A stretch of DNA of 33,553 nt from Oscillospiraceae bacterium (lineage in GTDB: Bacteria; Bacillota; Clostridia; Oscillospirales; CAG-272). The DNA lies in contig SVSW01000013.1 in the NCBI GenBank assembly GCA_015064095.1, positions 1-33,553 on the forward strand. Reading direction: 5' to 3'. The notes beneath the pieces are model-generated. The model did no database searches, was not told the DNA's origin, and saw nothing but the letters and a program-made list of their open reading frames with translations. The stretch's first letter is position 1. Each line of letters begins with the position of its first letter. This document shows positions 8,821-10,015 of this stretch, piece after piece. The translations under genes and the position numbers were made by a program.

Positions 8821-9058
8821 AATTTTCCTTCGATAACTGATGGGATTTTTTGAAATTTTCAGTGCGTTTTTTTGCTATCAAGATCTTCTATATGCCGTGC
8901 ATCATTCAAAAGAAGAACTCTGGGGCAAAAAAGCTCTCCGATTTTATTGGAAAACTCAAGCACAGTAATTGAAGTAAAATCGGGACGAAATGCTCGTGGC
9001 TTCGCGGTCTCATTATATCACATTTTTCGATGCTTTTCAATATTCTTCATGTAATATT

Positions 9059-9241
9059 TCAATAGGCGTTCATGCGTACATCTATTTCATCAATTTTGTT
9101 TAGAATAATAAAATATGCCCGGTCGATTACCTTTCGGGCATATCTTTCGTAATCGTCCCTCGTCGGCTCTTTGAGAAAACTTTGTCGCACGCAGACGAGG
9201 GCATATTTTACTCGATAATAGTATTTGATTTCGTATTCCAT
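9059..9241 (-). CDS. Small hypothetical protein (about 60 aa)
   Basis: MEYEIKYYYRVKYALVCVRQSFLKEPTRDDYERYARKVIDRAYFIILNKIDEIDVRMNAY from ATG 9241 with AAAGGAAG upstream; ORF track starts at 9274. Confidence 0.5.
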   Translation of the reverse strand: MEYEIKYYYRVKYALVCVRQSFLKEPTRDDYERYARKVIDRAYFIILNKIDEIDVRMNAY

Positions 9242-9316: not shown

Positions 9317-9670
9317 TTATTTGTTATCAATTTTCTTTTCAATCGTAATACAAGATGAGGTAAGCATTCTTTGAATTCTTCCGCAGAGATTGCGGTAGGT
9401 TTTGAAAGTTTCCTCGTCGATAACTTTCGTATTAAAGAGTAATTTGAGCCAGCTTTCCGTTTCAACGCACTCTTTTCTTGCAATCTTGAATTTGGAAAGC
9501 ATATCGGCAAGACTTTGAGGATATTGCGCCTCGGTGATATTGGCAAACACGCTTGACGAGGATTTGCGTAGTTGGAAAACGGTATTGGAATTGCCGCTGA
9601 TAGATTTACAGATCAATTCGCACTTGGTGGCAAGTTCTTCCGAGTATTCAAGTAATAAGTTTTTAGCCAT
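9317..9670 (-). CDS. Four-helix-bundle protein (23S rRNA IVP / Avd-like family)
   Basis: 117 aa; 'LLLEYSEELATKCELICKSI...QLRKSSSSVFANITEAQYPQSLADMLSKFKIARKECVETESWLKLL' is the pattern of this family. Confidence 0.85.
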   Translation of the reverse strand: MAKNLLLEYSEELATKCELICKSISGNSNTVFQLRKSSSSVFANITEAQYPQSLADMLSKFKIARKECVETESWLKLLFNTKVIDEETFKTYRNLCGRIQRMLTSSCITIEKKIDNK

Positions 9671-9696
9671 ATCGTTCTCCTTTCGCGTCCTCGCAT

Positions 9697-9904
9697 CCTA
9701 ATCAGCCCGTAGGGCTGTATGTAATCAAGGCGAAGCCTTGAATGTAATCCGCCGCAGGCGGTATGGAATCACGGCAACGCCGTGTATGTTATCAAGCCGA
9801 AGGCGAGGGGGAATACACGCTAATGCGTGATGCCATACTGCGCGGGGCGCAGATTACATACACGCCCAAAGGGCGTGATTACATACCAATCCTTCGGATT
9901 GGAT
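9697..9904. repeat. Bidirectional array of about nine mini-hairpins with conserved linker TATGTAATC (left half) / GATTACATA (right half)
   Basis: Hairpins at 9704-9716, 9726-9740, 9749-9761, 9770-9784, 9796-9804 (short), 9816-9829, 9838-9852, 9861-9877, 9886-9902. Stem sequences differ; loops are 3-4 nt. Confidence 0.9.
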
Positions 9905-9942
9905 AAAAAATTAAGCAACCCGATTGGGTTGCTTAATTTTTT
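9905..9942. terminator. Terminator of tRNA-Cys
   Basis: 17-bp perfect inverted repeat AAAAAATTAAGCAACCC-GATT-GGGTTGCTTAATTTTTT. Confidence 0.9.
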
Positions 9943-10015
9943 GGAGGCGCCACCCGGAATCGGACCGGGGATGAAGGTTTTGCAGACCTCTGCCTTACCG
10001 CTTGGCTATGGCGCC
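9942..10015 (-). tRNA. tRNA-Cys(GCA)
   Basis: Reverse complement GGCGCCATAGCCAAGCGGTAAGGC...CTGCAAA...CCCGGTCCGATTCCGGGTGGCGCCTCCA. Confidence 0.95.

Follow-up and report, generated by a model that had tools for sequence, protein, structure and literature searches.

What is an array of small hairpins, divided into two opposed halves, doing between a tRNA gene and the gene for a small four-helix-bundle protein? The question arises in a 33,553-nt stretch of DNA from an Oscillospiraceae bacterium (hereafter the window), whose minus strand reads, in order, tRNA-Cys, a symmetrical intrinsic terminator, a hairpin array (9703-9904) and a four-helix-bundle (S23) gene. An earlier note, made from the letters of this DNA alone, had described hairpins with diverged stems, a conserved linker and a flip of polarity. 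Sequence reading and a repeat search recovered all of the hairpins and linkers that it had named, together with the reversal of linker polarity within the array.

In plus-strand coordinates, the gene-side half-array (9703..9792, plus strand, linkers reversed) holds the hairpins CAGCCCGTAGGGCTG (9703-9717), CAAGGCGAAGCCTTG (9726-9740), CCGCCGCAGGCGG (9749-9761) and CACGGCAACGCCGTG (9770-9784), and the tRNA-side half-array (9816..9904, minus strand) holds CACGCTAATGCGTG (9816-9829), CTGCGCGGGGCGCAG (9838-9852), CACGCCCAAAGGGCGTG (9861-9877) and CCAATCCTTCGGATTGG (9886-9902). Both halves were delimited by sequence reading, repeat search, covariation and covariance model R1, which gave hits in the tRNA-side half. 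Between them lies the array centre (9793..9815, no strand; by inspection and arm-centre comparison) with a weak half-hairpin, CAAGCCGAAGGCGAG (9793-9807), which the earlier note had counted as an ordinary unit, GCC-GAA-GGC. The centre complements, imperfectly in the window and exactly in most relatives, the left arm of the hairpin that comes first on the tRNA side. Window linkers are 8-mers, TATGTAAT, AATGTAAT, TATGGAAT and TATGTTAT and, reversed, ATGCCATA followed by two copies of ATTACATA; read on the minus strand, those of the tRNA side are TATGTAAT, TATGTAAT and TATGGCAT. A C and a G previously counted with the linker are stem bases, so the linker proper is the 8-mer (TATGTAAT). The alternation of hairpins with 8-nt linkers and the polarity switch agree with the view that this is not a CRISPR array, and neither sequence reading nor repeat search gave near-identical direct repeats with even-length unique spacers.

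The array is genuine, and chance does not account for it: stems are swapped and pairing is retained. Among 16 units from three arrays of the window's own genome, 95.7% of cells are paired, and sliding the partner lowers this to 24-39%; 16 compensatory cells compare with 3.5 in shuffles. Across 98 units, mostly from relatives, 97.0% of cells are paired (17-36% slid) and 113 are compensatory against 37, in an alignment that was fitted to the model and leans to structure. Both sets support the earlier suggestion that structure, not stem sequence, is under constraint. Folded as single-stranded DNA, the array region lies 10.6 standard deviations below its own shuffles, and in that fold the linkers of opposite half-arrays pair with each other. 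Triloops of the C-GNA-G kind form stable DNA mini-hairpins, and the enrichment of GNA loops first noticed in the window extends to the wider set, where they make up 66 of the 111 triloops among 169 unique array hairpins. A role in recombination or as single-stranded DNA, at which the earlier note hinted, is a conjecture. Among arrays of the window's kind, those of three arm types have a centre that matches their own first arm in 72/88, 8/11 and 3/4 cases; where the linker differs, 20 of 22 arrays have a centre that complements 9-13 nt of first arm and linker, a stretch that partly includes the linker, against about 5.4 in shuffles. G-T wobble pairs are modestly rarer in array stems (5.0% and 1.1%) than in tRNA stems (7.0%), and their frequency was dropped as a discriminator between RNA and DNA.

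The flanks define the element further. The tRNA-Cys (GCA) gene (9942..10015, minus strand; ARAGORN and Rfam) has a perfect TTGACA-17-TATAAT promoter at 10063-10035 on the minus strand, and its 3' CCA is the left boundary of the element. There follows the terminator (9905..9942, no strand), an A6-stem-loop-stem-T6 structure whose 17-nt arms are 100% complementary in the repeat search; nearly the same terminator and left half-array recur behind tRNA-Val in L006. At the other end a tail, ATTAGGATGCGAGGACGCG (9684..9702, minus strand), leads to the S23 ribosome-binding site, and relatives have comparable tails (GATTGGGACGCGA, GATTGCGACGCGAG). No promoter was found between the window array and the S23 gene, unlike in most relatives. 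The gene itself (9317..9670, minus strand) encodes an S23, or 23S rRNA-intervening-sequence-type, four-helix-bundle protein of 117 amino acids that matches PF05635 (E 7.9e-19, 68.3 bits, cut-off 33.8), TIGR02436 (E 1.5e-19, 70.2 bits, cut-off 24) and PDB 2rld (E 5e-12). It is a member of a divergent, array-linked subfamily of PF05635. Just downstream, at about 9058-9241 on the minus strand, a small ORF of roughly 60 amino acids starting MEYEIKYYYRVKYALVC is possibly a second gene of the unit. Elsewhere in the window, a long run of ORFs at 10290-31626 on the plus strand begins with a bacterial sugar transferase (PF02397) and is probably a surface polysaccharide cluster.

The earlier interpretation had hinged on further loci that combine this linker with different stems; covariance model and pattern scan showed these to be numerous in the own genome and in relatives. 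The unit covariance model found 13 units at four places in the own genome; of the 39 genomes to which it was applied, 13 contained units, own genome counted. In the GTDB collection, a left-end pattern blind to tRNAs matched at least 120 stretches; among the matches listed, all left-end stretches came from Clostridia or Oscillospiraceae-type metagenome-assembled genomes (MAGs), mostly from ruminant gut. Phage and plasmid records gave no array match, and IMG/VR gave one contig with an array. In 50 of 85 left ends taken from the tRNA-blind pattern (one from IMG/VR), a tRNA 3' end lies 30-44 nt upstream, on the same strand in every case, and the tRNAs before these docked ends represent 15 amino acids. 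A tmRNA end directly precedes three arrays, two among the 85 left ends and one in another relative; about a dozen arrays are preceded by an 18-23-nt piece of a tRNA 3' end, and some left ends by another array. Further arrays in the own genome stand behind tRNA-Leu, tRNA-Val and tRNA-Trp with a terminator in between. Identical terminators recur behind different tRNAs, which makes the terminator part of the unit.

Over an unchanged stem, the loop of the terminator reads either GTCTACC or GGTAGAC, which gives the impression of an inverted hairpin (L116 and L139 versus L129 and others). Direct target-site duplication of the tRNA end was considered and rejected: a downstream copy of the tRNA 3' end was present in only 3 of 50 cases, and there is therefore no regular target duplication. 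In L155 (after 5900) and L062, an inverted repeat that is conserved (GGATTTTGCAAGAC...GTCTTGCAAAATTC in L155) precedes partial tRNA 3' ends; it may be where a different island, also integrating at tRNAs, ends.

The window-type array is missing from many PF05635 genes of relatives, which have instead arrays built on other linkers (GTGAAAT, GTGATAT, AATGATG, GTGATGT, GTGAAGT and more), with the same mid-array reversal and often a tRNA in front. In all, about 14 linker types share one architecture with S23 as a neighbour. The 77-nt Rfam family Gut-1 (RF01706), described from the human gut as a noncoding RNA candidate without function (PMC2864571), corresponds to one half, the tRNA-side one, of arrays whose linker is GTGAAAT or akin to it. 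In arrays of relatives this half scored 66.9 and 56.8 bits against the Gut-1 model (threshold 50), and the opposite half scored 35.0 and 29.6 bits on the opposite strand. The window array, whose linker differs (TATGTAAT), gave no hit to Gut-1 at the Rfam gathering threshold. The remark that the array had no published name is thus only partly true: half of the other-linker arrays is already catalogued as Gut-1.

Gut-1 copies reach up to 60 per genome and occur in 24 of the 39 relatives, but under stricter filters in only 2 of a phylum-wide draw of 150 genomes, the own genome being one of these; its copy (G000:C46) follows part of a tRNA-Asn end. One-way arrays with no tRNA are found among the copies, and near-identical copies occur within G001 and within G014. 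A conserved tail, TGTAAAGGAAGAAAACCTTCGGTTTTCGATTTTATTG...ACCGATAAATCGGAGTTTG, follows one-way Gut-1 arrays in G001 (L307-L324, with L313 as an example of such a Gut-1 copy); these tailed arrays, present in many near-identical copies behind protein genes, look like a second, recently amplified element type. Separately, promoter-less arrays upstream of PF05635 in L226, L243, L256, L266 and L272 sit at the 3' ends of protein genes whose C-termini read HVESVV... and, by inspection, resemble RlmD/TrmA-type methyltransferases (ParA-like in L272); in some of these the end of the protein gene itself forms a hairpin before the array.

Co-occurrence with four-helix-bundle genes, the other expectation of the earlier note, was upheld on several counts. 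At least 5 hairpins lie upstream of 32 of 58 PF05635 genes of relatives (window included), against about 1.3 expected, and a same-strand tRNA lies within 480 bp of 28 of the 58 (opposite strand, 0/58). S23 similarity follows linker similarity (Mantel r 0.54, reached by 0 of 2000 permutations; linkers assigned by script and eye), and several S23/linker types coexist in one genome. Across genomes, S23 gene number correlates with Gut-1 copy number (rho 0.74, p 8e-8, kinship ignored), and 384 of 407 Gut-1 copies are in genomes with S23. The association appears not to extend to the whole PF05635 family: at the 16 control loci examined elsewhere in the phylum, canonical members had no tRNA upstream and mostly few hairpins. 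A PF05635 branch without an array (L211, L212, L216, L220) carries short tandem repeats of the AATGCAGAATGCAGAATTATGG type right before the start codon.

S23 proteins are not known to be catalytic. Tyrosine recombinases, serine recombinases, Y1 transposases and reverse transcriptases were considered as partners of the array and rejected, as their presence does not track arrays. The own genome (G000, 92% complete) has a single tyrosine recombinase, Xer-like and closest to XerD in PDB, and none of the relatives is without a tyrosine recombinase. G000, G001, G005 and G015, all of which carry copies, lack serine recombinases; Y1 transposase PF01797 is absent from G000, G001, G003, G015 and G019; and reverse transcriptase RVT_1 from G000, G001, G013, G014 and G017, several of them copy-rich. 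Counts of tyrosine recombinases, Y1 transposases and reverse transcriptases showed no link to Gut-1 copy number across genomes.

Behind the array there is usually a promoter and then a cargo gene or S23. In 20 of 34 units a promoter-like pair (at least 10 of 12 matches) lies between the array and S23, against 2.2% when shuffled; its -35 box overlaps or abuts the last linker. Cargo is diverse: 131 of 158 cargo ORFs are singletons, S23 accounts for 13 of 67 first genes, and the others include ankyrin repeats, Imm26, DUF3885, DUF2695, uracil-DNA glycosylase and HTH proteins. Defence cargo was considered and set aside, since PADLOC matches among the 67 first genes were few and mostly to generic HTH or ankyrin models. 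Sixteen array-array pairs stand in tandem in one orientation, one of them repeating a place already counted, spaced 280-291 bp without a gene and 696-1626 bp with one or two. The left end of the cassette, unlike the right, is well defined by the tRNA junction scan and by the pair L116 and L139, which are 100% identical over 3.5 kb beginning exactly at the CCA|terminator junction; upstream of it lies the end of another cassette in L116 and tRNA-Leu in L139. These two MAG contigs point to the precise gain or loss of one cassette. A recurrent cassette 3' end, GTACTTTTAGTCGTTCTTACCC...ACCTTTTGGTCGCTCTTTCGCA, resembling two direct repeats about 30 nt apart, immediately precedes the following terminator in several genomes (L073 1600-3700; L089, L116, L142, L157 and L065; L139 about 890-910) and may be the other recombination half-site.

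What, then, is the array? Comparison among genomes establishes its architecture and recurrence, the tRNA/tmRNA junction, the tandem cassettes, stem covariation, arm-centre complementarity and the match of linker to S23 clade. On balance, we lean towards the array being the cis-acting DNA site of small, S23-dependent cassettes that dock behind tRNA and tmRNA 3' ends. Each unit would follow the plan of stable-RNA gene 3' end, terminator, bidirectional hairpin array, promoter and gene or genes; autonomous-looking units would carry S23 first, as in the window, and others cargo alone or nothing. The array would act as DNA, its hairpins folding when single-stranded or supercoiled, S23 would recognise the pattern of linkers and hairpins that goes with its own type, and a host enzyme, with Xer or replication/repair as candidates, would use the folded site to insert or excise the cassette beside a second folded structure, the tRNA-like one. 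With a terminator before the array and a promoter after it in most units, neighbouring transcripts keep off it, an arrangement that suggests a DNA-level site.

The same hairpins might instead work as a structured noncoding RNA, made by read-through from the tRNA and bound by S23, with mobility incidental, an account we consider unlikely. Gut-1, which matches half-arrays, was after all catalogued as a noncoding RNA candidate (PMC2864571). Folded as RNA, the array region likewise falls far below shuffles (z -8.9), and in some types, the window included, it runs without a promoter into the S23 ribosome-binding site. Such a transcript is, however, hard to square with a terminator immediately ahead of the array and, in most units, a promoter immediately behind, with opposed half-arrays that let either strand fold equally, or with the dominance of C-GNA-G triloops, the stable DNA mini-hairpins. 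We favour the DNA reading because terminator and promoter shield the array and its two opposed halves make both strands alike; it is something we infer, since the promoter is missing from the window and some other types and wobble pairs are too common to decide the matter.

We give rather little credence to the idea that the units are passive terminator-plus-hairpin repeats, REP/BIME/MITE-like transposon debris that gathers behind tRNAs, spreads by recombination and picks up cargo by chance. Non-autonomous copies do far outnumber S23 genes, copies in G001 and G014 are near-identical, and searches for tyrosine, serine, Y1 and RT enzymes found no dedicated one. Yet debris would not be expected to join exactly after CCA on one strand only, to keep one architecture through about 14 linker types with an S23 neighbour, to preserve arm-centre complementarity or to yield an insertion pair with the same boundary, as in the MAG contigs L116 and L139. 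Least probable of all is an operator array, with inverted sites for S23 or another protein controlling the abutting promoter and hairpins as a by-product of dyads: the position of the -35 box at the last linker and the covariation of linkers with S23 clade fit it, but operators keep their sequence whereas array stems vary freely with pairing kept, half-array copies number up to 60 in a genome, many of them lacking a promoter or gene downstream and some in one-way arrays, and the tRNA/tmRNA junction and tandem cassettes are left unexplained.

Returning to S23-dependent docking, a bolder version, which we put forward tentatively and regard as possible, is an unrecognised class of mobile cassette in which an S23/Avd-like protein, matched to its linker, would direct insertion of a folded multi-hairpin DNA exactly behind tRNA/tmRNA genes without a dedicated known recombinase. 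In the open literature we found no paper linking Gut-1, S23 and tRNA; within that scope the system is new as a system, with half of its architecture already catalogued as an orphan motif, Gut-1. Two orphans, the Gut-1 'RNA', whose function has been unassigned since 2010, and a branch of the four-helix-bundle family, thereby gain a home, neighbours and a testable role. If the mechanism is true, gut Clostridia would possess a gene-capture system comparable to integrons and anchored on tRNA genes, and a structural DNA code of linker and hairpins would be read by a small protein. For searches of RNA motifs, the arrays are a reminder that covariation can arise from DNA hairpins.

Among known systems, we set the arrays apart from integrons, REP/RAYT, IS200/IS605, CRISPR and retroelements because in each comparison a defining part that was tested for is missing. 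With Gut-1 (RF01706) the window array shares hairpins split by a conserved linker and covarying stems; its linker differs, and it is bidirectional, whereas Gut-1 as described is one-way, without a known neighbour and reported from the human gut alone (PMC2864571). The S23-bearing intervening sequences of 23S rRNA have a protein of the same PF05635 family and are also tied to stable-RNA genes, but the arrays lie behind tRNA/tmRNA and not inside 23S rRNA. Avd of diversity-generating retroelements is related to PF05635; unlike in those elements, there is no reverse transcriptase in G000, G001, G013, G014 or G017. REP/BIME sequences with RAYT resemble the arrays in being scattered hairpin repeats, most copies non-autonomous, that have a protein as partner, but the partner here is S23 and not a Y1 transposase, and G000 and G001 are without PF01797. 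Islands integrated by tyrosine integrases also use tRNA/tmRNA 3' ends, and some partial 18-23-nt tRNA-end copies recall them; in contrast, the arrays accept any tRNA species, join after CCA, belong to a unit without an integrase and usually have no second tRNA end. Integron attC cassettes offer tandem gene cassettes (here 16 pairs) between large imperfect palindromic sites, with attC boxes judged by inspection, as well as diverse, mostly singleton cargo and insertion apparently beside the anchor (L116/L139). No integron integrase (IntI) was found in G000 (92% complete), whose sole tyrosine recombinase is nearest XerD in PDB. Unlike integrons, the arrays anchor on any tRNA or tmRNA 3' end, and their site is a bidirectional multi-hairpin array set before the gene.
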